A stretch of 33,203 nucleotides of DNA from a virus. Position numbers and translations under genes: made by a program. This document shows positions 21 through 32,961 of the stretch, one piece after another. Each line of letters opens with the position of its first letter. Within the stretch, counting starts at the first letter, position 1. The stretch covers positions 1 to 33,203 of the IMG/VR virus record IMGVR_UViG_3300030103_001532; one strand, 5' to 3'. The notes under the pieces were generated by a model, which saw only the letters and a program-made list of their open reading frames with translations, was not told the origin of the DNA and ran no database searches.

Positions 21-55
21 TTTCATATTCTTTCATAACAGTACTGGACATACTG
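21..55. promoter_or_regulatory. Paired short direct repeats, possible operator
   Basis: TTTCATA occurs at 21-27 and 31-37, exactly ten bases apart. TACTG occurs at 42-46 and 51-55, the first inside the perfect palindrome CAGTACTG (40-47). Helically phased repeats upstream of a terminator/promoter junction could bind a regulator. They could equally be chance in AT-rich DNA or the tail of an upstream gene. Confidence 0.2.
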
Positions 56-60
56 TACGA

Positions 61-88
61 ACAAGACTCCACTTCGGTGGAGTTTTGT
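61..88 (+). terminator. Rho-independent terminator with UUCG loop
   Basis: A 12-bp stem (61-72 with 77-88, one G-T wobble) closes a TTCG tetraloop at 73-76. The right arm ends in TTTTGT, which serves as the U-tract. It would end transcription from an operon left of the window. The promoter for the first gene here begins at its last base. Confidence 0.8.
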
Positions 89-96
89 GCTATAGT
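88..96 (+). promoter_or_regulatory. Extended -10 promoter for the packaging operon
   Basis: TGCTATAGT is an extended -10 element (TG, one base, TATAGT at 91-96). No good -35 is visible, as is usual for extended -10 promoters. Transcription would start near 103, leaving a leader of about 20 bases with an AGGAGA ribosome site at 112-117, five bases before the ATG at 123. The same TTGTGxTATAGT string recurs before the connector gene at 22718. Confidence 0.55.
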
Positions 97-122
97 AATA
101 AGAAGTAATACAGGAGATATTT

Positions 123-305
123 ATGGCAAGAGGAAGAAAATCATCTTTTAATAAAGGTGTGTATGATAAATTAGGTCGTGAAGATAAACAAAATTATATA
201 AAATCTGCATCACTTGGTTTTGGAAAACAAATGTCAAAACTAGCAAAGCAATATCCAATGACTAACCCAATAAAAAATAAAAACAAACCAAAAGGTTCTA
301 AATAA
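123..305 (+). CDS. Small basic protein, 60 aa, unknown
   Basis: I do not recognise a family. The protein is strongly basic (many Lys/Arg), starts MARGRK and ends in a Lys-rich tail (KNKNKPKGSK), with no membrane segment or cysteine. A good AGGAGA site five bases upstream fixes the start. Its stop overlaps the next ATG by one base, making it the first of a translationally coupled run of tiny basic genes. The charge suggests nucleic-acid binding or virion packing, but nothing in the sequence proves it. A late packaging role is inferred from the terminase downstream. Confidence 0.7.
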   Translation: MARGRKSSFNKGVYDKLGREDKQNYIKSASLGFGKQMSKLAKQYPMTNPIKNKNKPKGSK

Positions 306-364
306 TGAAAACATATAAAAAGAAAAAAACAACTAAAGGTAAAAAGAAAAAAAGAGGTTACTAA
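305..364 (+). CDS. Lys-rich micro-protein, 19 aa
   Basis: The ORF is ATG...TAA with one-base TAATG overlaps at both ends. The 19 residues are about half lysine or arginine, ending KKKRGY. The coupling with both neighbours argues for translation. A 19-codon Lys-rich frame in AT-rich DNA could also be a spacer that keeps ribosomes moving between genes. If made, it would bind nucleic acid by charge alone. No family is known to me. Confidence 0.45.
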   Translation: MKTYKKKKTTKGKKKKRGY

Positions 365-486
365 TGCCTAAGGGAAGTTATTCTTCTAAGCAAAAGAAAC
401 TAGCTGCGGTTGCACCGCCTTTTGATAAAATTACTTCTGCTGATTTAAAAAAATTAAGAGATAGTAAGAGAAGAAAAAAAATCTAA
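364..486 (+). CDS. Small basic protein, 40 aa, unknown
   Basis: The 40-residue frame starts MPKGSYSSKQKK and ends in a dense basic tail (KLRDSKRRKKI). It overlaps the previous stop and the next ATG by one base each. The middle (AAVAPPFDKITSADLKKL) looks like an ordinary short helix, so this is more protein-like than its 19-aa neighbour. It carries a nuclear-localisation-like basic C-terminus, which in a phage suggests DNA or RNA contact. I recognise no homologue. Confidence 0.55.
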   Translation: MPKGSYSSKQKKLAAVAPPFDKITSADLKKLRDSKRRKKI

Positions 487-659
487 TGAAAATTAAAGGC
501 GTAGATGTATCTAAGTTAACTAAAAGACAACAAGATACTATGAAGAAACACAGTAAACATCATACCAAAAAACATTTACAGTATATGACTAACTCTATGA
601 AAAGAGGTAGTACATTTAGTAAAGCACATAAAAATGCACAAAAAAATGTTGGTAAGTAA
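486..659 (+). CDS. Small basic His/Lys-rich protein, 57 aa
   Basis: This frame is coupled by TAATG overlaps on both sides. The start MKIKGVDVSKLTKRQQDTMKKH is followed by a His/Lys cluster (KHSKHHTKKH, residues 21-30) and a region GSTFSKAHKNAQKN. The pattern KLTxRQxxTMKxHxxHHTxKHxxxMxxxMxxGxTFxxAHxxAxKxVG looks like a conserved small helical phage protein rather than chance coding. Its function is unknown. Clustered His could bind metal, but no second site element is clear. Confidence 0.65.
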   Translation: MKIKGVDVSKLTKRQQDTMKKHSKHHTKKHLQYMTNSMKRGSTFSKAHKNAQKNVGK

Positions 660-916
660 TGGCAACATATCAGGGTAAATCAGTTACATTAAATAAACCT
701 TCTAGGATTAGTAAAGGTGAACCTGGTCATGGTAGAAAAAAATTTAAAGTTTATGTTAAAGATGGTGACAAAGTAAAAAAAGTTATGTTTGGTGACCCAA
801 ACATGGAGATACGCAAAGATAACCCAAAAGCTAGAAAATCATTTAGAGCAAGACATAAATGTGATACAGCAACAGATAAAACATCTGCAAGATATTGGTC
901 TTGCAAAATGTGGTAA
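659..916 (+). CDS. Conserved phage protein, 85 aa (FGDPNMEI...RYWSCKMW type)
   Basis: It opens MATYQGKSVTLNKPSRI and has a central FGDPNMEI motif, RARHKCDTATDK and a C-terminal RYWSCKMW. From memory, small proteins with this FGDPxMxIRxDxP...ARxxCD...YWSCxxW pattern recur in marine and other tailed phages, often beside head or packaging genes, without an assigned function. Two cysteines (in HKCD and WSCK) could form a metal site with the nearby His. It starts one base inside the previous gene and is followed by a proper AAGGAG site for the next one. Confidence 0.8.
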   Translation: MATYQGKSVTLNKPSRISKGEPGHGRKKFKVYVKDGDKVKKVMFGDPNMEIRKDNPKARKSFRARHKCDTATDKTSARYWSCKMW

Positions 917-925
917 GGAGTTAAC

Positions 926-1048
926 ATGGCTAAAAAAGTAAGTTGGATGTGGGGTGGCAAAAGATATTATGGAACTCTTATAAGAGAAACTAAAACCCAT
1001 AAGTTTGCTAGAACACACAATGGCAAAATTAAAAAAATAAAGAAATAG
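926..1048 (+). CDS. Small basic protein, 40 aa, unknown
   Basis: The frame starts at 926, five bases after a strong AAGGAG (915-920), the best ribosome site in this cluster, so translation is likely. The product MAKKVSWMWGGKRYYGTLIR... is rich in Lys/Arg and aromatic residues and ends KIKKIKK. The layout (short beta-like segments WMWGGKRYYGTLI, then a basic tail) would suit a tiny nucleic-acid-binding fold. I do not recognise it. Confidence 0.65.
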   Translation: MAKKVSWMWGGKRYYGTLIRETKTHKFARTHNGKIKKIKK

Positions 1049-1049
1049 T

Positions 1050-1145
1050 TTGATACCCATTGGATGTCCAAGGTGTGGAGAAGAATTGTTACCCAGGAAC
1101 GATATGAAATGTAAAAACAAAAAATGTAAATCCTATGGCAAATAA
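1050..1145 (+). CDS. Four-cysteine mini-protein (zinc-ribbon-like), TTG start
   Basis: A TTG-initiated frame of 31 codons encodes IPIGCPRCGEELL...KCKNKKC, with Cys pairs spaced C-x2-C and C-x4-C separated by eleven residues. This is the pattern of a minimal zinc ribbon or knuckle. It overlaps the terminase start by 11 bases, and the terminase has no good ribosome site of its own, so coupled translation would explain terminase expression. Doubts are the non-ATG start, the weak upstream site (AAGAAA) and the very short length. Confidence 0.45.
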   Translation: MIPIGCPRCGEELLPRNDMKCKNKKCKSYGK

Positions 1146-3054
1146 ATTTTGTTATGCAGGAGGATGCCACAGACCTTTACCTAAAGGTAGAACTAAATAT
1201 TGTAGTGATAGATGTTATAACAGAATTACTATGCAAAAAAAAAGAGCAAAGAAAAAAGGTGTAGAGTGGAAACAAGAAGATGACACTTTAGTTATACCTA
1301 GTCAAAAGAAAAATTTACAATCAAGGCGTGGTCAAGTATATAACGATATTGTTGATTCAGGATTAGCAGAAGAAATATTAAAAGGTAAAAACACATTAGC
1401 TGATGTAGCAAAAATATTAAAAACTTCTGTTGCTGCGGTATCTATGGCATATAACGCATATATAGAAGATAAAGAAAATGAAGTTGCAAAAGATAATTGG
1501 GAGATACCGCAAGTTGCAGAAAAATCATTACAAGATTTTAGAAATTTTAGAGATAGATATTTTCAAACAGAAAAAGGTGAAGCATACGAAACACCAGAGT
1601 TTCATATAAAATGGATTAATTCTATTTTAGATGCTATAGAACATGGTGACCAACAAATGATACTTTCACCTCCTAGACATGGAAAAACAGATTTGTTAAT
1701 ACATTTTGCTGTATGGCTTATATGTACAAAACCTAACATTCGTATATTGTGGGTTGGTGGTAACGAAGAAATTGCAAAGAATGCAATAGGTTCTGTGCTT
1801 GACCAACTTGAAAGTAACGAATTGTTAATAGAAGAAATATGTGGACCAGGACCAAAATTTAAACCTACATCAAGAACAGGTAAGTCTTGGTCACAAAATG
1901 GTTTTACTGTAGGTACAAGAACTGTTACAGGTATTAAATCACCTACTATGGTAGGACTTGGTAGAGGAGGTAAAATATTATCTCGTGACTGTGACATAAT
2001 TATTGCTGATGACATTGAGGACCACAGCTCTACTATGCAACCTGCATCAAGAGAAAACACAAGAAGTTGGTGGACTACAACACTATCTAGTCGTAAAGAG
2101 GAACATACAGCTATGGTAGTTATTGGGTCAAGACAACATTATGATGACCTATACTCACATTTGTTAGACAACGAATCTTGGAAAACAATAGTTGAAGAAG
2201 CACATGATACTGCTTGTAATTTACCTGATTGGAATGAAGATGAGCATGTAGATTGCATGTTGTGGTCTAGTAAAAGAACTTACAAATGGTTAATGGACAG
2301 AAAAAGAGCCGCAGAAACTACAGGTGGTAGAGCAATATACGAAATGGTTTATCTTAATGTAGCTATGCCTGATGGATTATCTTTATTTGATAGAGTAGAA
2401 ATAGAAGAGTGTCGTGAACAAAAGCGTGACATAGGACACATACCACATGGTACAAGATTAATAGCAGGACTTGACCCTGCCTCTACAGGTTATCAAGCTG
2501 CATTTTTGTGGGCATACGAACCTGTAGAAAATAAATTAAGCATGATAGACATGAACAACAATTTAGGTGGCGGTATTCCACAAGCGTTAGAAATAATAAA
2601 AGAATGGTGGGCTAAATATAATTTGTCACATTGGGTAATAGAAGAAAATGGATTTCAAAAAGCAATTAGACAAGATATGTCTATTAGAGATTTTGCATCT
2701 AAGCATGGTATATTTTTAGAAGGACACGAAACTTACAAAAACAAATTTGACCCTATTTATGGTGTAACAGCTATGCGACCTATGTTTCAAGAAAAAAATA
2801 TTTCTTTGCCATATCTTAGCTTTGAAGCACAAGAAAAGGTAAACTTATATACAAGTCAGTTAGTGTACTTTAGCTCTGCAAAAAATAAAAGCAAAAGTGT
2901 AGGTACAAAAACAGACATAGTTATGGCTAGTTGGTTTCCAATGAGAGCTATAAGAAGAATGCAGAAAGAACGCTTTGCGGAGTTAGGATATGATTATAGT
3001 CCTAGCTTTTCACAGTATGAACCTAGTAGTATGGATATAGATAATTGGAGATAA
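1135..3054 (+). CDS. terL: Terminase large subunit with N-terminal Cys4/HTH region
   Basis: This is the ATPase-nuclease motor that packages DNA through the portal. The Walker A motif is SPPRHGKT (178-185) and Walker B is DIIIADDI (287-294). The RNase-H-like nuclease follows with acidic residues in GLDPAST (D447), VIEENG (E503/E504) and TKTDIVMAS (D594). At 639 residues it is somewhat longer than typical. The extra N-terminus holds C6, C11, C23 and C27 (C-x4-C-x11-C-x3-C), a basic stretch (34-46), and a helix-turn-helix-like segment LADVAKILKTSVAAVSMAY (88-106). No separate small terminase is recognised, so this region may supply DNA recognition. The gene overlaps the Cys4 mini-gene and abuts the portal gene directly. 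Confidence 0.93.
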   Translation: MANKFCYAGGCHRPLPKGRTKYCSDRCYNRITMQKKRAKKKGVEWKQEDDTLVIPSQKKNLQSRRGQVYNDIVDSGLAEEILKGKNTLADVAKILKTSVAAVSMAYNAYIEDKENEVAKDNWEIPQVAEKSLQDFRNFRDRYFQTEKGEAYETPEFHIKWINSILDAIEHGDQQMILSPPRHGKTDLLIHFAVWLICTKPNIRILWVGGNEEIAKNAIGSVLDQLESNELLIEEICGPGPKFKPTSRTGKSWSQNGFTVGTRTVTGIKSPTMVGLGRGGKILSRDCDIIIADDIEDHSSTMQPASRENTRSWWTTTLSSRKEEHTAMVVIGSRQHYDDLYSHLLDNESWKTIVEEAHDTACNLPDWNEDEHVDCMLWSSKRTYKWLMDRKRAAETTGGRAIYEMVYLNVAMPDGLSLFDRVEIEECREQKRDIGHIPHGTRLIAGLDPASTGYQAAFLWAYEPVENKLSMIDMNNNLGGGIPQALEIIKEWWAKYNLSHWVIEENGFQKAIRQDMSIRDFASKHGIFLEGHETYKNKFDPIYGVTAMRPMFQEKNISLPYLSFEAQEKVNLYTSQLVYFSSAKNKSKSVGTKTDIVMASWFPMRAIRRMQKERFAELGYDYSPSFSQYEPSSMDIDNWR

Positions 3055-5051: not shown

Positions 5052-5484
5052 AGGAAGAAAACCAAGTAAATTAACACAAGCTACAGATGTAAAAGTAGAT
5101 GGTGCATATTATGATGTTGTTGCACCTCCAAGAATGGAAGGTGACCCAACAGGGCAGACAGCAGCATTAGAAGCACAAACAGAAGCTATAGATGTTATAG
5201 ACCAAGAAACTACACTTACTAGCGGTGTACCTAATGTTGGTGCGTTACCAAGTCCTTTAAATATTGCTGCACCTACAAATAGACAATTTGAACCAAACAC
5301 TGCAGGTATTCCTGTAGGTCCAGGAAGTAATGGACCAAGAATTGCACCTACAAACACATTACAAAATTTTTTAACAGTAGCTAAAGAAATAACGCAAGAC
5401 CCTATATTTGATGAGTTGCTTAATGAGGATATAATACCAGAACCTGCGTTGGGCAAAGACCCACAGGATTATTTTGGTATTTAA
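5044..5484 (+). CDS. Basic-start, Pro/Thr-rich protein, about 146 aa
   Basis: I chose ATG 5044 (MPRGRKPSK) because AAGGA at 5029-5033 lies ten bases upstream. An in-frame ATG at 5035 would sit only one base from that site. The basic N-terminus is followed by a low-complexity Pro/Ala/Thr/Gly region (ALPSPLNIAAPTNRQFEPN...) and an acidic helical end (FDELLNEDIIPEPALGKDPQ). That suits a disordered linker or plug protein between larger virion parts. It overlaps the giant gene's ATG by one base. No homologue is recognised. Confidence 0.7.
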   Translation: MPRGRKPSKLTQATDVKVDGAYYDVVAPPRMEGDPTGQTAALEAQTEAIDVIDQETTLTSGVPNVGALPSPLNIAAPTNRQFEPNTAGIPVGPGSNGPRIAPTNTLQNFLTVAKEITQDPIFDELLNEDIIPEPALGKDPQDYFGI

Positions 5485-8400
5485 TGAGAGATTACAGACA
5501 AATATTATTTGGTCCACCAGAGCTAGATAGTTATTTAGCAAAAAACACTAAAGCTAATTTAAAAGAAATAAATTTTTTTAGAAACACAATAACACCAGAA
5601 GTTGCAGAACAAGCAGCTAATATTGCTAGAGCATATCCAAATATGGATAAAAAATTAGTAATGTATGGTGCATTACTAGGACTAGAACACGATTCTGATT
5701 TAGCTTTACAATTATCAGAACGACAAAACAATGTTGCTATAAAACAAAATCAACAAAACATAAACAAAGTATCTAAAGCAAGAAGAGCTTCACAATTAGG
5801 TTTGTTAATGTTAGATTTAGGATTTCAACCACTATCAAGAAACTTTAAATCTTCTATTGTTGCTGCACAAGATACAGGAATAAACAAAGCACAAGCAGTT
5901 GCTGCTAACACATTTTTAGGTGGGTTAACAGGAGTTGCTAGTTGGTTACCAGGAGTTGATGGTGACAAAGCTGCAGACAGAGTTAGAACTGCATTGTTAG
6001 GTAAAGAATTTGCAGATGTATATAAAGATACAAAAGATGCTTATGGTCCAACAGAGTTTAATTTAGCTTACGACCAAATACAACAAGGTAAACCACTTAA
6101 CTTAGGTAAAGGTTTTTTTCCTGCATCTACACCATTAAAAGAAACACAGGGTTTTAAAGACTCTCGTAGAGCAGGTTTGTCTGAAGCAGATTCTTTAAGA
6201 GAAGCAGAGGAAATTTATGGTGTACCAATTACAGAGAGATATGAACAACTAGAAAATCAATTTAAAACAGAAACTAGAAAAGCAGGACAGGTAAATATAT
6301 CTCCAGGTCGTATTGTTGCAGGACAGTTTTTTACTAAAGATGATTTAGGTTATGCGTTAGGTTCAACAGTTATTGATGGTGCGTTTAGAGTTTTTGGTGA
6401 CCCTACAAACTTTGCATTAGGTTATTTATCTGGTGCAAAACTAGGACTTAGAAGTTTGGTAGATGAAGGTATGCAACAAGCATTTAAAACTGTCAAGGTT
6501 GGAGATGATGTTAAAAACATACCGCTTATAAATCAATTTCTTAAAACAATAAAAGGTGGAACTATAGAAGTATCACCAGGTATAACAAGAGAGATTACAA
6601 GAAAAGAAGCTAGAAAACTTATGTTTGGTAGGACTGCTACACAAATATTAGACAGCAAAAGAGGAGATAAGTTACTAGATGCTTTTGTTGCAAATAAAGA
6701 TTTATCAACATTAATGGATATGCCAGGTTTAAACAAAGCACCTGTAGAGTTATTGCAATTACTTACTGTTGTTGATGATAAAAACTTTATGAAAACATTA
6801 CTTACATCACTTATGCAAAATGGTAATTTGTCAGGTGTAGATAAAGTTATGGCATTTAAGTATGGTATAAATGATGACATAGTAAGAGCTATAACAGAAG
6901 GAAATCAATTACGCATTCCTATACAACCAAACTTGCTTGGTGAAGCATCTAATTTAATTGCTAAAAAATATTTAGGTAAAGATACAGATGTAGGTGCATT
7001 AAGAAATTTGTTAAAACAAGCTAATAAAACAAGAGCTGCATTTAATCCTAATGCTACAGATAATTTGTTTACAGGCATTATTGGTGTAGGTGGAGATTTA
7101 AGAATGTCTATGCCACATAGGATGAGAAGATTTTTTGATTTAGCACCAGGCAGAGTTATGTCATCTAAAAATATCGGAGAAAGTGCAAGAAACCTTGATG
7201 GCATTATGAAATCTGCAAGGTTTAGTAGAGAATTAAGAAATAAATATTTAGACCAAATATTAGATTCTGATAACAACACAGATATGTTACAAACTGTTCG
7301 TGAAGTATATGCAGACATTAAAGAAGAAATTGTAAAAAGAAATCCTGACTTAGAAGATTTTAGAGATGAGATAGCAGAAACAATGGATTTCTTAGCTAAT
7401 GAGTCAGACCTTAGAAGGTATATGACTGTAGAAGGTTCACCAGACCAATTAGCATATCCAGGAGTTAAATTTAAAAAAGTTACAAAAACAAAAGGTAAGT
7501 ATGGTAAGGAAGAAGTAGTATTTGAAGCATTACCTACTGCACAAATGATTTCAGAGTATGTAGATAATTACATACCATTAATTGATTATGTAGAACTAGA
7601 AAGATTTTTTCCTATATGGCGACAAATAGTAGGTAAGAAAAACTCTAATTTAAGAAAATACATTGATGAACCTACAGACAAAATTACAGAGCGATTGCTT
7701 AAAAAATTAGGTTCTAAAAAATTAAAGACAGACCCACGAACAGGTAGAACTACAGCAGGTGGTCAAACAACACTTGGAATGTTGTATCAAGATTATTTAT
7801 TACAAAGAGTATTAAAACCATCATGGATGTTACGACCTGCACTATCTACTAGGGTTACACCAGAAGAGGCATTAAGAATTATATTTAGTGGTTCACGAAT
7901 AGGACTTAATCACCCATTACAGTATTACGCAGTTAAATTAGCAGGTGGTCAAACATTAGAAATGCAAAATGCTTATGGTGATGTGTTGTGGGGAACAAGA
8001 ATTAAAAAAAGAGAAAGTGATTTAATTAAAGAAATATTAGGTCCAGAGTTTGTAAAAGCTGCATCTATAGAATATCCACAAATAGAACGATTACTTAAAC
8101 ATATGAAGATAGGTATGAACGAATATGGTATGGCATCTGATGACTTTGTATCTTGGGTATTAGGTAATAATGATGGTAGAGATTTTATATTTAGAGAACT
8201 AGGAATAGAAGAAGTAAAACAACTTAGAGTATTTAAAGGACAACTAAGAGAAGTAACATCAGATAAAAAATCTATTGCAGATACAATATTAGATAATCCA
8301 AATGGCGGTTCTTTTAATTTGCAAACAGGTATAGTAAATCCTGCATCATTTGGAACAGTCAGTCCATATCATAATTTAGGTATAGTAGTAAAAAGGTCAG

Positions 8401-11400
8401 AGATAGCAGAAAAATTAGGTGTTAATGCAGATACATCATTAAGTGATTTATTAGAACCAATACTATCTAATTTTTTAATAGGTGGTGACCAAGCTACTAT
8501 TCGTAGAAAATATTTACGCAAGGAAAATCATGTATTGGGTTGGTGGTTGGATAAAACTGATGACACATTACATTTAGATGTATCAGTTGTAATACCACCA
8601 TTAAAAGAAGTAACACCTAAAAATATAGAGAAAGCATTAGTAGCTATGTCTATGTTAGGTATAAAAGGTAAGCAGTTAAGTGCTTGGTTACCAGATGACA
8701 CAATAAATGAAATATTAAAAACTAATTTGCTTAATTCTGACAATCTTAAATATTGGAAGAAAGCTATAGATGTAGATGATAATTTGTTGTGGTTTGTAAA
8801 TAAAAATGCACCAGATATGGAACGATTAAGAGATGCTACAACAAATGATTTAGTTGTTCGTAAAGCAGTTATGGAAGCACTGTATGATACAAACTTTGAT
8901 GTTGCAAGAGTTCTTAAAAGGAAAAAAAGAGGTATAGCTAATGTAGCACCAGATGGTAGTTGGTTACCATTGACAGAATCTTATTTACAATCTATGTCAA
9001 GAAAAGCACTAAATGAGTTTTTTGAACCAGTAAAAGTAAATCCTATGGGTGATGCCATGATAGATTATGACAAAATTGTTAATGGTAAAGTAGAAGATGA
9101 TTACATTAGAAACTGGATTCATCAATTAATACTATTATCTAAAAACCCTATTACACAGAGATTAGTAAATGATGGTATAGATAGCACAATGAACTGGCTT
9201 ACTACATCATATGATGGTAAACAAGTCATGCAACAACTTGTAAAACAAGCAGACCTAAGAGGCAGAAAAGCTAAAGAAGTATTAGATAATCCAGTTGCAT
9301 TAAGAAATAATTTAGAAGCACTAGGTTACAGAATATCAAGACATATTGGTGGACAGTTTCAAATCAAAGACCCTTTGTCAGGTGTAGTAAAATCAGAAGA
9401 TTGGGCAACTTCTATAAGATTTCAAAATGGAACTATGGTTTATCCATTATACGAATATGGTTTTGAAGGTGCATCAAGTGCAGCACTTAACTTTCTTAAA
9501 AATGGTGGATTTGTAGATGGCACAGACTGGTTAGAAAGTTGGACACTTGCTACACAGGGCAAAGGCATGAGTACAATACAAGGACAAATATCTAAATATT
9601 ATAAAAATATATGGAAGTTGTTTAAAAAAGATATAAATGTATTACCAGACAATGTTAATGGTGCATATGTAAGTTTAAATAATAAATATAGAAGTAAGGG
9701 TGATTTAGATGCTGCTGTTGCAAAGCTAGATAGAGGACTAGAGTTTTTATATTCTACATTTCTTACTGGACCATCAGATATAGCTAATCGTGACCCAATG
9801 TATAGATGGAGTATATACGAACATGGATTAGATGGCATCAAGTTAATGACAGAGGACTTAGCAAAAGATTTCTTAAAAGGTGCAGAAGCATCACTTCGTG
9901 GTAGTAAGTTTGGGGAAAAAATACTAGGTGAAATAGTAGATGAAATAACTACTTACAAAGAAATAGGTTTTGCTAATGAGATAACAACTATGGAACAACT
10001 TATGGCAATATTGTCTAAAAAAGCAGGTGCATCTGTAGTTGATTTATTGTACAGTACTAAGTCAAGACATCAATTTAGTGATGCTTTATCTTCATATGTA
10101 CCATTTCCAGAGATTGGTGCAGAGGTTTATAAGACTTGGGGTGGATTATTTGGTACAAGACCACAGAAATTTAACAGAGCAAGAATAGCGTTTGATGCAG
10201 GTGATGAAGGTAAACCATGGGATGCAGAAATGGGATTCTTTTTTAAAGACCCAGTCACAGGTAAGCGTATGTTTAGTTATCCTGACCCATTCGGTGTTAT
10301 ACAGAAAAACTTTTTTGGAGAAGATTTACGACAACAAGGTGTGCGTGTAAGACCTGCAGGTTTCTTATCTGCACTTAACTTGGTAACAGCTAATGGTTTC
10401 TTACCAGGTGTAGGACCTAGAGAAGTATGGGGATTAGAGTTTTTTGAAAATATTGTTACTACACTACCTACATTTTTAACTAAATCTATACTTGGAGATT
10501 TTAGAACTAATACAGATTTGTATTCATTAGTTACAGAGGTTTTACCATCATATGCTGAAAAGGTTTTAACTGCAGAATATTTTAGTGATAACTCTGAAGA
10601 AACATTAGACAGAAGATATGCAAGTTCTGTAATTGATACACTTGCTGTTATGTATTCTAAAGGTCTTATAGACCCAACAGATACAGGTAATCAAGGTGAT
10701 ACTTTAGAAAAATACAGAGATGCAGCAAATAACCAATGGTTAGTTAGAGGACTTGTACAAGCATCACTACCTACAGGATTACAACCAAGAATAGAAGTAA
10801 AAGATAAAGATGGTCAATGGTGGTTTGTACAAGCACTTACAGATGAATACAGAAGAATGTTAGAAGTAAATGATTATGATTACTCTACAACACAATCAGA
10901 GTTTATAGATAGATTTGGAATTAATCCCATACCTCTTATACAAACTAAAAATAAACCTGCTGTTAGAACACCATACACAGAATCTGCTGTACAGTTTTGG
11001 TCAAAGAGAGAAAACAGAGCATTGTATGATACACATCCAAGAACTGCATACTATATACGACCAGATTCAGTTGATGATGATTGGGTATGGTCAGGTGACT
11101 TTAATGCACTTAGAGATTACTACACAGAAAAAGAATGGGATTTGTTAGTAAGACAGACATTGTTAGAAAGAGAATTGCAAATAGTAAAAGAAGATTTGCA
11201 AATAATTGCTAAAGAACAAGACAAATCTAACAAATGGATTAATGGTAATTATGCACTTAAAAGAAGAGAGCTAGAAAAAGCATATGGTATTAAAGGGTTT
11301 TCATCATTAGGTATAGGTGAAATAAAATCTGACCCATCATTAGATATTATGGAACTACAAACATGGAAAGATAATGAGGTATTATCTAGTTCACCAGAAT

Positions 11401-11669
11401 TTACACCGCTACAAAAATATTTACAAAAAAGAGAAGAAGCTATTACTATATTGACAAATGGTGGAGAGTTTGAAGGTGGTAGATTTGGTAAAGCAAACCC
11501 ACCTACAATAGACCCACTACGCAGTGAGCAAGAGAGAAGTGCATATGTGCGTGATAGGTTGGCAGAATATGGTAGAGAACTTATTGAAGAATATCCAGAT
11601 ACATTCTTTAACCAGATATTTTATGGTATTCTGTTTTATGAAGTTGACAATACAAGATATGAGGATTAA
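5484..11669 (+). CDS. Giant virion protein, 2061 aa, probable internal/ejection protein
   Basis: The frame is uninterrupted over 6.2 kb. The N-terminus is helical, with Gly/Ala-rich weakly hydrophobic stretches (FLGGLTGVASWLPGV near 144-158). The middle carries conserved-looking aromatic motifs (KPSWMLRPALSTRVTPEEALRI, YVPFPEIGAEVYKTW, FKDPVTGKRMFSYPDPFG). The last 200 residues are charged helices (around 1880-1920). This size and style fit large internal or polyvalent proteins of short-tailed phages, which ride in the capsid and help pass DNA across the envelope. I cannot find a clear catalytic site. A tape measure is the main alternative, but there are no tail-tube genes. It is coupled to both the preceding and following genes. 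Confidence 0.72.
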   Translation: MRDYRQILFGPPELDSYLAKNTKANLKEINFFRNTITPEVAEQAANIARAYPNMDKKLVMYGALLGLEHDSDLALQLSERQNNVAIKQNQQNINKVSKARRASQLGLLMLDLGFQPLSRNFKSSIVAAQDTGINKAQAVAANTFLGGLTGVASWLPGVDGDKAADRVRTALLGKEFADVYKDTKDAYGPTEFNLAYDQIQQGKPLNLGKGFFPASTPLKETQGFKDSRRAGLSEADSLREAEEIYGVPITERYEQLENQFKTETRKAGQVNISPGRIVAGQFFTKDDLGYALGSTVIDGAFRVFGDPTNFALGYLSGAKLGLRSLVDEGMQQAFKTVKVGDDVKNIPLINQFLKTIKGGTIEVSPGITREITRKEARKLMFGRTATQILDSKRGDKLLDAFVANKDLSTLMDMPGLNKAPVELLQLLTVVDDKNFMKTLLTSLMQNGNLSGVDKVMAFKYGINDDIVRAITEGNQLRIPIQPNLLGEASNLIAKKYLGKDTDVGALRNLLKQANKTRAAFNPNATDNLFTGIIGVGGDLRMSMPHRMRRFFDLAPGRVMSSKNIGESARNLDGIMKSARFSRELRNKYLDQILDSDNNTDMLQTVREVYADIKEEIVKRNPDLEDFRDEIAETMDFLANESDLRRYMTVEGSPDQLAYPGVKFKKVTKTKGKYGKEEVVFEALPTAQMISEYVDNYIPLIDYVELERFFPIWRQIVGKKNSNLRKYIDEPTDKITERLLKKLGSKKLKTDPRTGRTTAGGQTTLGMLYQDYLLQRVLKPSWMLRPALSTRVTPEEALRIIFSGSRIGLNHPLQYYAVKLAGGQTLEMQNAYGDVLWGTRIKKRESDLIKEILGPEFVKAASIEYPQIERLLKHMKIGMNEYGMASDDFVSWVLGNNDGRDFIFRELGIEEVKQLRVFKGQLREVTSDKKSIADTILDNPNGGSFNLQTGIVNPASFGTVSPYHNLGIVVKRSEIAEKLGVNADTSLSDLLEPILSNFLIGGDQATIRRKYLRKENHVLGWWLDKTDDTLHLDVSVVIPPLKEVTPKNIEKALVAMSMLGIKGKQLSAWLPDDTINEILKTNLLNSDNLKYWKKAIDVDDNLLWFVNKNAPDMERLRDATTNDLVVRKAVMEALYDTNFDVARVLKRKKRGIANVAPDGSWLPLTESYLQSMSRKALNEFFEPVKVNPMGDAMIDYDKIVNGKVEDDYIRNWIHQLILLSKNPITQRLVNDGIDSTMNWLTTSYDGKQVMQQLVKQADLRGRKAKEVLDNPVALRNNLEALGYRISRHIGGQFQIKDPLSGVVKSEDWATSIRFQNGTMVYPLYEYGFEGASSAALNFLKNGGFVDGTDWLESWTLATQGKGMSTIQGQISKYYKNIWKLFKKDINVLPDNVNGAYVSLNNKYRSKGDLDAAVAKLDRGLEFLYSTFLTGPSDIANRDPMYRWSIYEHGLDGIKLMTEDLAKDFLKGAEASLRGSKFGEKILGEIVDEITTYKEIGFANEITTMEQLMAILSKKAGASVVDLLYSTKSRHQFSDALSSYVPFPEIGAEVYKTWGGLFGTRPQKFNRARIAFDAGDEGKPWDAEMGFFFKDPVTGKRMFSYPDPFGVIQKNFFGEDLRQQGVRVRPAGFLSALNLVTANGFLPGVGPREVWGLEFFENIVTTLPTFLTKSILGDFRTNTDLYSLVTEVLPSYAEKVLTAEYFSDNSEETLDRRYASSVIDTLAVMYSKGLIDPTDTGNQGDTLEKYRDAANNQWLVRGLVQASLPTGLQPRIEVKDKDGQWWFVQALTDEYRRMLEVNDYDYSTTQSEFIDRFGINPIPLIQTKNKPAVRTPYTESAVQFWSKRENRALYDTHPRTAYYIRPDSVDDDWVWSGDFNALRDYYTEKEWDLLVRQTLLERELQIVKEDLQIIAKEQDKSNKWINGNYALKRRELEKAYGIKGFSSLGIGEIKSDPSLDIMELQTWKDNEVLSSSPEFTPLQKYLQKREEAITILTNGGEFEGGRFGKANPPTIDPLRSEQERSAYVRDRLAEYGRELIEEYPDTFFNQIFYGILFYEVDNTRYED

Positions 11670-31064: not shown

Positions 31065-31171
31065 TGGAAGAGGACTTTGTACTTCCAGACAATATGTTTG
31101 CAGACAACCCAGAGTTTGTAGATACTTCACACGAATTTGATGATGACTGTGGAGATGCCTGTAAAATATGA
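31064..31171 (+). CDS. Small acidic protein, 35 aa
   Basis: The frame overlaps the previous stop by one base and the next ATG by four. The product MEEDFVLPDNMFADNPEFVDTSHEFDDDCGDACKI is very acidic with two Cys (C-x3-C) near the end. The double coupling argues for translation. A short acidic peptide could bind the basic membrane neighbours or a metal. Function is unknown. Confidence 0.55.
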   Translation: MEEDFVLPDNMFADNPEFVDTSHEFDDDCGDACKI

Positions 31172-32961
31172 AAAAGTTTTTTATTTTACTTGCAGCTTTC
31201 TTATTAGTTACAACACCTGCTTATGCGTATCACACAGAAACACAAACACCTTATGGCATAAACATATCTGTTGATAGTGAGAATGGAGAGATAGAACTTA
31301 CTTGGCAAGAATCAGATGCGTTAGAAGTTAATCCACCTGAATACTATAGGTTATTTTTTGGTGATGATGACCAAGCAGCAGACTTCTCTATAGATACTAG
31401 CTTTGGTTTTAATGAAGCATTGTCTTGGAGAACTTATTACTTTACTCCTGAATATATATACGAAAAGTTTGAAACAACTACGCTTACATTCTATGCAAAG
31501 ATACAAGCAAGGAATGATACAGGTGGTACAGTTAGTGACTTAACAACAGTAGTTAGTGTAGAATATGATTATGATTATGTACCTACTTCAACGACATCTA
31601 GTACGACAACAAGCTCTACCACATCATCAACGACTACTACCACGACTACAACTACCACCACAACAACGACAACGCTACCTCAGGCGAAAGATGTGGTTGA
31701 AGATGGTAACACAACCTATCTCGCGTGGGATGAATATGGTTGCGAACATCCAAACAATCCTTTATCGTTTAAAGAATATTTGGAAGCAGTAGAAAGTGGA
31801 GTTTGGTTTGGTTATCAAGATGGCGACTGCTCTGACATACCTGATGATGTTATTGATATTATCGCAGAAGAGGAGATAGAAGATGAGATACTTGAAGAGG
31901 ATGTGGTGGTGGATGGACTTACAGATCTGGAACTATCAGAGGAAGAAGTCATTGAGGAACTTACAGAAGAAGAAATAGCTGCAATAGAAGCAGAGATAAA
32001 AGCTGAAGAAGAACGGCTGATCCAAAAACAAATAGAAGCAGAGGAAGAAGCAGAGATACTATTAGAGTTAGAAGAATCTGTAATTGAATTAGAAGATTTA
32101 TCTGAAGAAGAAATACAAGAGTTTGTAGAGGTTATAAAAGAAATAGAAGATACTATTGAGATTATAGAAATAATAGAGGAAGTTATAGAACTAGATATAC
32201 CTGAAGATATAATAGTAATAGAGATAGAGGAAGATGAGGTTATAGAAGATGACATTGTTATTGTGGTGGAAGATGAAATCGTTGATGAGGAAGTTTTGGA
32301 TGAGCCAATACAGGAAGATGTTGAGGAAGAGTTAACTGAAGAAGAAGTAGCTGTTGAAGTAGCAGAGATAGAAGAAGTTGTAGAAGTTCCTATTGTAGAA
32401 GAGGATGCAACAGAGGAAGAAGTTGCTGAAGCTATTGAAGAATATGTAGAAGAACTTGAAACAGAGGAAGTCATAGAAGTACTTGAAGAAGTTAATGATG
32501 TTGGTGTACAAGAGTTAGAGAATGTATCAGAAGAAGTCCAGGAAGTAATCCAGGCAGTAGTAGAGGAAGCTATAGAAGATGTTGAACAGCTTACACAGGA
32601 GCAAGTTGAGGTTGTTGCTGATGTACTACAAGTTGAAACTGAAGATGTTGCTATCGTTGCAGAAGCGATTAAATCAGACACAGTAGTAGCAGAAGCAGTA
32701 GAGGAATATGTAGAAAGAGCTGTAGAGAACGCAGATGTAGAGAACTATACTCTTGCTGATGTTGTTACAGAGGTACAGTACGAAGCATTTTTAGAAAATC
32801 CAATAGAAACCTTTGTTGATTTAGATTTTGAAGATATAAATATAAATAGTATTGGTGATGATATGACATCAGACCAAAAAGAAAAAGCACAAGAAGTCGT
32901 AGTTCCTGTAATCTTGACTAGAATAGCTAGTATGGCTGCATTTTTATTTAGGAGAGGCTAA
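31168..32961 (+). CDS. Secreted Thr-linker acidic surface protein, 597 aa
   Basis: A signal peptide MKKFFILLAAFLLVTTPAYA (cleavage after A20) leads to a FN3-like beta domain (about 28-134). A Thr/Ser linker (140-169) and a short domain with C192 and C221 follow. The next 330 or so residues are Glu/Val/Ile-rich (225-560), mostly degenerate short repeats with EEV, EEI and EEL steps. The end VVVPVILTRIASMAAFLFRRG is hydrophobic and closes with two Arg, a possible membrane anchor or sorting-like tail. This resembles a host cell-envelope protein rather than a virion part. The linker uses ACG, ACC, GCG and CTC codons that are rare in the rest of the window, suggesting capture from a host. A role in envelope decoration, superinfection exclusion or release is inferred. 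Confidence 0.7.
   Translation: MKKFFILLAAFLLVTTPAYAYHTETQTPYGINISVDSENGEIELTWQESDALEVNPPEYYRLFFGDDDQAADFSIDTSFGFNEALSWRTYYFTPEYIYEKFETTTLTFYAKIQARNDTGGTVSDLTTVVSVEYDYDYVPTSTTSSTTTSSTTSSTTTTTTTTTTTTTTTLPQAKDVVEDGNTTYLAWDEYGCEHPNNPLSFKEYLEAVESGVWFGYQDGDCSDIPDDVIDIIAEEEIEDEILEEDVVVDGLTDLELSEEEVIEELTEEEIAAIEAEIKAEEERLIQKQIEAEEEAEILLELEESVIELEDLSEEEIQEFVEVIKEIEDTIEIIEIIEEVIELDIPEDIIVIEIEEDEVIEDDIVIVVEDEIVDEEVLDEPIQEDVEEELTEEEVAVEVAEIEEVVEVPIVEEDATEEEVAEAIEEYVEELETEEVIEVLEEVNDVGVQELENVSEEVQEVIQAVVEEAIEDVEQLTQEQVEVVADVLQVETEDVAIVAEAIKSDTVVAEAVEEYVERAVENADVENYTLADVVTEVQYEAFLENPIETFVDLDFEDININSIGDDMTSDQKEKAQEVVVPVILTRIASMAAFLFRRG

Follow-up and report, generated by a model that had tools for sequence, protein, structure and literature searches.

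A row of small basic genes before the terminase gene as one version of a swappable cassette of marine phages, with possible links to the virus head

Directly upstream of the gene for the large terminase subunit (TerL), a row of very small reading frames in the viral DNA analysed here raises the question of whether such frames are genes at all and, if so, what they do at this place. The window, meaning the whole stretch of DNA that was analysed, comprises bases 1–33203 of a 34189-base IMG/VR virus record. Seven small plus-strand frames, A to G, tile positions 123–1145 and then run into the large terminase gene; all were present with the lengths and at the place given in an earlier note made from the DNA letters. 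The features of the locus are as follows.

64–97, plus strand: hairpin and extended −10-like box, with a stem at about 66–83, then TTTTGTGCTATAGT
123–305, plus strand: A, 60 aa, basic, net charge +13, AGGAG ribosome site
305–364, plus strand: B, Lys-rich peptide of 19 aa, net charge +11, TAATG-coupled to A
364–486, plus strand: C, 40 aa, basic, net charge +10, TAATG-coupled
486–659, plus strand: D, 57 aa, basic, net charge +14, predicted three-helix protein, PHROG 31838, TAATG-coupled
659–916, plus strand: E, 85 aa, basic alpha+beta domain, net charge +15, PHROG 7595, TAATG-coupled
926–1048, plus strand: F, 40 aa, basic, net charge +12, AAGGAG ribosome site
1050–1145, plus strand: G, Cys4 peptide (CPxCG...CKNKKC) of 31 aa, net charge +5, TTG start
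1135–3054, plus strand: TerL, large terminase subunit (PHROG 38, 7.2e-64), with an extra Cys-rich N-terminus

The linkage of the frames by TAATG overlaps or strong ribosome sites, as originally proposed, holds for the one-base TAATG overlaps at four junctions (A/B, B/C, C/D and D/E), for A with its AGGAG and for F, which follows E after a gap of 9 nt with AAGGAG upstream, but not for G, the TTG of which lies one base past F with no clear ribosome site and which overlaps the start of TerL by 11 nt. Upon 2000 dinucleotide shuffles of the region, with −1 junctions counted for ATG frames not shorter than 19 aa, 1952 shuffles lacked such a junction, 47 contained one and a single shuffle contained two, compared with four in the real sequence, and the tiled length of 921 bp compares with a shuffle maximum of 414. 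All seven proteins (19–85 aa) are small and basic, with net charges from +5 to +15, which bears out the description of the set as mainly basic, the Cys-rich G being mildly so (+5); unlike them, 23 of the 24 other window proteins are neutral or acidic, and the fraction of lysine plus arginine is 0.26–0.58 in the seven frames versus 0.03–0.13 in those 24 proteins. The GC content of the frames is 0.20–0.34 and that of the whole window 0.34, while genes of similar GC elsewhere in the window encode acidic proteins. Two further proteins of the window may be mentioned on their own account: a 597-aa protein (31168–32961) that is very acidic outside a poly-Thr stretch and that, with its net charge of −156, forms a counterpart of opposite charge to the basic cassette, and a 2061-aa protein (5484–11669) for which Pfam gave nothing at E ≤ 0.1.

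Conservation was assessed in 80 relatives fetched with TerL as query, and family models were built from 76 TerL loci and the window, after exclusion of L038, L068, L078 and L080, in which the sequence breaks off at or close to the TerL start. Pooled over non-identical copies, the pairs of which are not independent, in-frame pN/pS amounted to 0.39 for B (5 copies), 0.30 for B2 (22 copies), 0.25 for C, 0.22 for D, 0.18 for E, 0.18 for F and 0.31 for G, compared with 1.03–3.31 in the two off frames of every family tested (1.32 and 1.63 for C), bar one B value (0.62). The comparison of synonymous with nonsynonymous change that had been suggested as a check thus comes out in favour of the frames B to G. 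Loss of the frames in relatives with tolerated frameshifts, which according to the earlier note would speak against genes, was not observed for B to G, except that two E copies are disrupted, one split in L058 and one reduced to a 26-aa remnant in L024; the short copies in L004 and L049 are due to contig ends. It is close to certain that B to G are real genes which form a TerL-linked cassette. A, with homologous frames in four relatives and a pN mostly close to pS, is fast-evolving and less surely a genuine gene.

In the relatives, this cassette is permuted. Across the 60 TerL-anchored loci, the window included, that have over 1000 bp of upstream sequence, 28 gene orders were counted, drawn from about a dozen families including C to G, H, J and K. 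A first pass over the same loci found G in 51, E in 46, H in 31, D and F in 21 each, C in 16 and A and B in 5 each. Modules beyond the window set, namely H, I, J, K and M, substitute for or join the window modules; H, for instance, which is not present in the window, takes the place of F or accompanies F in window relatives. One-base (−1) overlaps occur at 54 of 191 cassette junctions and join 15 distinct ordered pairs, a count biased upward by a start choice that favoured an ATG overlapping a stop. In the smallest cassettes, a single small gene and G are all that precedes TerL, so most modules must be dispensable. Module identity follows TerL identity with a Spearman coefficient of 0.04–0.26, which, although such short sequences are noisy, is the poor tracking expected from swapping. 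As an observation in itself, L023 (−925 from TerL) and L079 (−919) carry, in tandem before E, another E-like frame, which is diverged and 78 aa long.

A search with the D profile delivered 80 loci, 78 of them new, and 55 of these 78 carry a TerL of the group type on the locus; several of the D- or E-anchored loci lie on contigs already fetched with TerL, such as L199/L041, L257/L042 and L265/L046. The near mirror-image orders E-C-D-F-J-K (L194) and J-K-F-D-C-E (L215) are both found on the same strand before TerL, C-D-E precedes a terminase with its best match to PHROG 2, another terminase type (L216), and E-K-J-C-D precedes a head scaffolding gene (L255). Exceptions are D-E near an exonuclease (L228, L230) and D near a tail gene (L259). 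A search for hosts with TerL in genome contigs placed five loci in MAGs from three unlike groups and gave no clear host. The window locus is one version of a swappable cassette of small basic modules carried by many marine phages.

The cassette appears to have a defined beginning. In the window and in relatives, a hairpin followed by TTTTGTGnTATAGT is located upstream of the first cassette gene; the pattern was detected in 55 of 74 loci, of which five (L009, L067, L069, L075, L079) were judged spurious, leaving about 50, and the sequence of the hairpin stems varies between loci while pairing is kept. RNA folding of window positions 40–125 gave a z of −4.0. A terminator-like call on the window hairpin was obtained on the minus strand only, a sigma-70 consensus scan called no promoter there, and Rfam, searched with the window and seven loci, gave nothing at the gathering threshold. 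Hairpin and box may represent a terminator/promoter boundary at which the unit of cassette and terminase starts, and such a boundary would place the cassette and TerL in one late unit. In L003, L006, L024 and L028, a region of about 1 kb that lies just before the hairpin, roughly 1–2 kb from TerL on the upstream side, holds no convincing genes but has short nucleotide stretches common to relatives; a structured RNA, an origin or a packaging site is possible there. Also upstream of the hairpin, a small acidic Cys4 frame (CxxC...YWEDELVNGLCxxC) recurs in L003 (−1364 from TerL), L045 (−940) and others; it is absent from the window.

Which protein families do these modules belong to? The PHROG scan took in six of the frames, B with its 19 aa being under the length accepted by the search. 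E matched PHROG 7595 (E 2.1e-18, profile positions 8–96 of 96) and D PHROG 31838 (E 3.9e-7, positions 2–51 of 51), both over the full length, A matched neither PHROG nor Pfam, C found no PHROG match, and the PHROG matches of F and G were weak. The assumption that several of the frames would be missed in catalogues is therefore only partly right, D and E being matched. The PHROG families matched by D, E, H, J and K have no assigned function; I is HiPIP-like (PF01355, 0.0017) and J DUF5824-like (1.5e-4), each under the cut-off of its model. NCBIfam gave no match for D, E, F and H and weak DNA-ligase matches only for G, and despite its PHROG match D found none in cultured phages by tblastn. Hva1_TUDOR (PF11160), tested for F, had no match in the window at E ≤ 1; on the F of relative L006 it reached 15.6 bits, below its curated cut-off of 24.1 bits, and the single record above this cut-off is L145, a fusion with the XkdF protease domain. 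With DUF5754/Tlr6f (PF19058), a domain reported from polinton-like viruses, NCLDVs and phages (PMC12220804), the window E scored 12.8 bits, less than the curated 27.4 bits, and the model lay over the E position below threshold in 8 of 20 records and above it in none; by these scores, E may be marginally related to this domain while failing its cut-off.

Predicted structures show D as a compact, basic protein of three helices (pLDDT 95.4) and E as an alpha+beta domain (pLDDT 96, from 59 sequences). Against the PDB, the D model gave a best Foldseek E of 4.2 and a best VIA Z of 3.4 (43 residues, rmsd 2.3), the E model a best Foldseek E of 0.51 and no VIA match at Z ≥ 2, and the E profile a best sequence-search E of 0.52; these outcomes are no demonstration of a new fold for either protein.

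The main clue to function comes from proteins of which E is one part. Among 78 E-anchored viral contigs, 27 have E within an open reading frame of at least 180 aa, and all 27 long proteins carry Peptidase_S78_2, the XkdF head maturation protease domain, together with DUF5824 (J) in 13, ChaB in 7 and Hva1_TUDOR in 1. When the 27 E-XkdF fusions were scanned with our own family profiles, J was again recovered in 13, and none of the profiles for C, D, F, G, H and K gave a clear domain. The stand-alone E of the window has no match to the XkdF model (PF14550) at E ≤ 1; its fused relatives do. The order E-XkdF of these fusions is also that of gp55 of the cultured Roseobacter phage CRP-6, encoded three genes from the capsid gene. 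In the Vibrio phage ICP1 the order is the opposite one, with the XkdF protease at residues 36–160 of gp125 and a C-terminal part which is probably E-like, as judged from a fold match and from PHROG 9979, a profile with the 278 positions of gp125 whose positions 188–258 match the window E. In a fold search of E against viral models the two best matches were named ChaB and XkdF, and ICP1 ORF125 appeared at E 3.6e-3. Papers on ICP1 name gp125 a predicted procapsid protease (PMC7567579, PMC9040626) and gp124 the scaffold (PMC10945586), and XkdF is described as a likely head-processing peptidase (PMC7824862). CRP-6 gp55 and, by its probably E-like part, ICP1 gp125 share the E domain with the window and have it in a head module before scaffold and capsid genes, whereas the window E stands alone before TerL without a protease domain. 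Polyvalent proteins (PMC5512222) are phage proteins of several domains for which packaging in the head is predicted, and the single-domain genes of the window, which form no polyprotein, differ from them; a likeness is seen in phage CRP-901, in which a PBECR5 nuclease protein follows E. HTVC008M and Melnitz-3, both T4-like phages, have E and J next to or inside a protein that resembles a cytidyltransferase.

The genome position of H and E in cultured phages provides a second line of evidence. H matched 28 cultured records, and among 17 inspected, picked to span organisms, it lies within the packaging/head block or up to four genes before it in 14: it adjoins the terminase in Syn5 and S-TIP28, precedes it in P60, Venkman, CRP-3 and CRP-738, lies between scaffold and capsid genes in HTVC019P, HTVC119P, S35-C6, HTVC200P and HTVC025P and between TerL and portal in HTVC028P, MEP301 and Baldr; it is away from this block in the other three, HTVC024P, Greip and HTVC010P. 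For E, 11 of 25 cultured records, likewise picked to span organisms, were inspected; the link to head or packaging genes is present in five (CRP-3, CRP-738, CRP-6, HTVC026P, Aegir), ambiguous in four (CRP-901, HTVC008M, Melnitz-3, immuto) and lacking in HTVC106P and pT24, where E is elsewhere. In CRP-3 and CRP-738, E and H form a pair that precedes TerS-TerL. The Syn5 gp59 family (PHROG 25774, module H) resembles the window in that a small basic gene directly precedes the terminase, but H is single in Syn5 and not in a row, while the window has the row without H. A tie to head assembly elsewhere is thus supported for two of the families, for E through the XkdF fusion and for H through its position. 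Together with the conservation of B to G and their joint occurrence next to TerL, this lends partial support to the earlier proposal of a set for DNA condensation or packaging control, both of which would be putative roles.

We would give an even chance to the reading that the cassette encodes late accessory proteins of head assembly or packaging, small and cationic, located in the prohead and made together with the terminase. The frames would be transcribed as late genes with the terminase and translated in part by termination-reinitiation at the TAATG junctions. The prohead would be the site of action of E and, in relatives, of J, a location proposed since the head maturation protease delivers the E domain elsewhere, and as a cassette member is also a piece of this enzyme, the set probably builds or fills the virus head. 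C, D, F and G may share the place of action of E, and the whole row would then supply cationic proteins that touch the scaffold core or the incoming DNA, a contact which positive charge alone suggests. Against this reading, the fusion evidence concerns E and J alone, and E or H is off the head genes in five of the cultured phages named above. The D-E pairs near an exonuclease in L228 and L230, the cytidyltransferase-like surroundings of E and J in T4-like phages and the small size of some cassettes speak against it as well. In the titles, abstracts and passages searched, no description of the cassette, its permutation or its link to XkdF was found, and at the level of titles and abstracts no virion test of the cassette families or report of their presence inside heads.

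The internal head proteins of phage T4 are small and basic and are proposed to lie in the head with the DNA. The cassette products are likewise small and basic; no sequence match between the two was found.

The strongest competitor, unlikely in our estimate though with a share of the probability that counts, regards the modules as moron-like late genes, nucleic-acid-binding or host-directed, parked at the permissive start of a late operon, so that closeness to TerL would reflect a tolerated insertion site and no packaging function. The highly variable content and order, with 28 orders in 60 loci, the low correlation with TerL identity and the location of E or H elsewhere in five inspected cultured phages are all in line with it; the recurrence of the same families beside head and packaging genes of unlike phages and the fusion of E and J to the head protease tell against it.

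G, which overlaps TerL, calls for a separate consideration. Its TTG start is conserved in 67 of 70 copies, unusually so for a weak start, which suggests that little of it is made and that its amount is tied to TerL. One or several members of the set, with the Cys4 peptide G as the best candidate, might replace or assist the small terminase subunit in recognising the DNA ends or in steering the motor, an explanation that we judge improbable and behind the moron-like one. It would accommodate the presence of G before TerL in 51 of the 60 loci, the conserved TTG and the fact that a separate small subunit beside TerL was not recognised, the six frames scanned (all but B) giving no match to TerS models, which can miss this diverse subunit. 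On the other hand, right after G the TerL N-terminus (window 1135–1260) has its own Cys-rich segment, an extension with a possible helix-turn-helix as judged from the sequence, CRP-3 and CRP-738 carry an annotated TerS besides E and H, and G was not found in some relatives (L064–L067). That the row holds no genes and is merely AT-rich, Lys-coding sequence open through its composition is scarcely credible, as the low GC of the frames and the lack of clear purifying selection in A, which would suit it, are outweighed by the shuffles, the remote homologues, the acidic products of window genes of similar GC and the off-frame controls, which refute it for B to G.

Returning to the head-assembly reading, its wider form, which we hold tentatively and at somewhat less than even chances, is that many marine phages possess a portable kit of small cationic prohead modules, which come either fused to the protease, by which they would enter the prohead, or as shuffled, TAATG-joined genes before the terminase, and that E, D, H and J, where they stand alone, would form a widespread class of head proteins, so far unrecognised, associated with the core or the DNA. 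A number of these families are common in marine phages and have no assigned function, and for one of them, E, the protease fusion in two opposite domain orders gives a place of action that can be tested. Very small phage genes in a row become readable as a split-up domain architecture, and the occurrence of the cassette before more than one terminase type may help to explain how marine phages with short genomes and no recognised internal proteins organise their head core and DNA.
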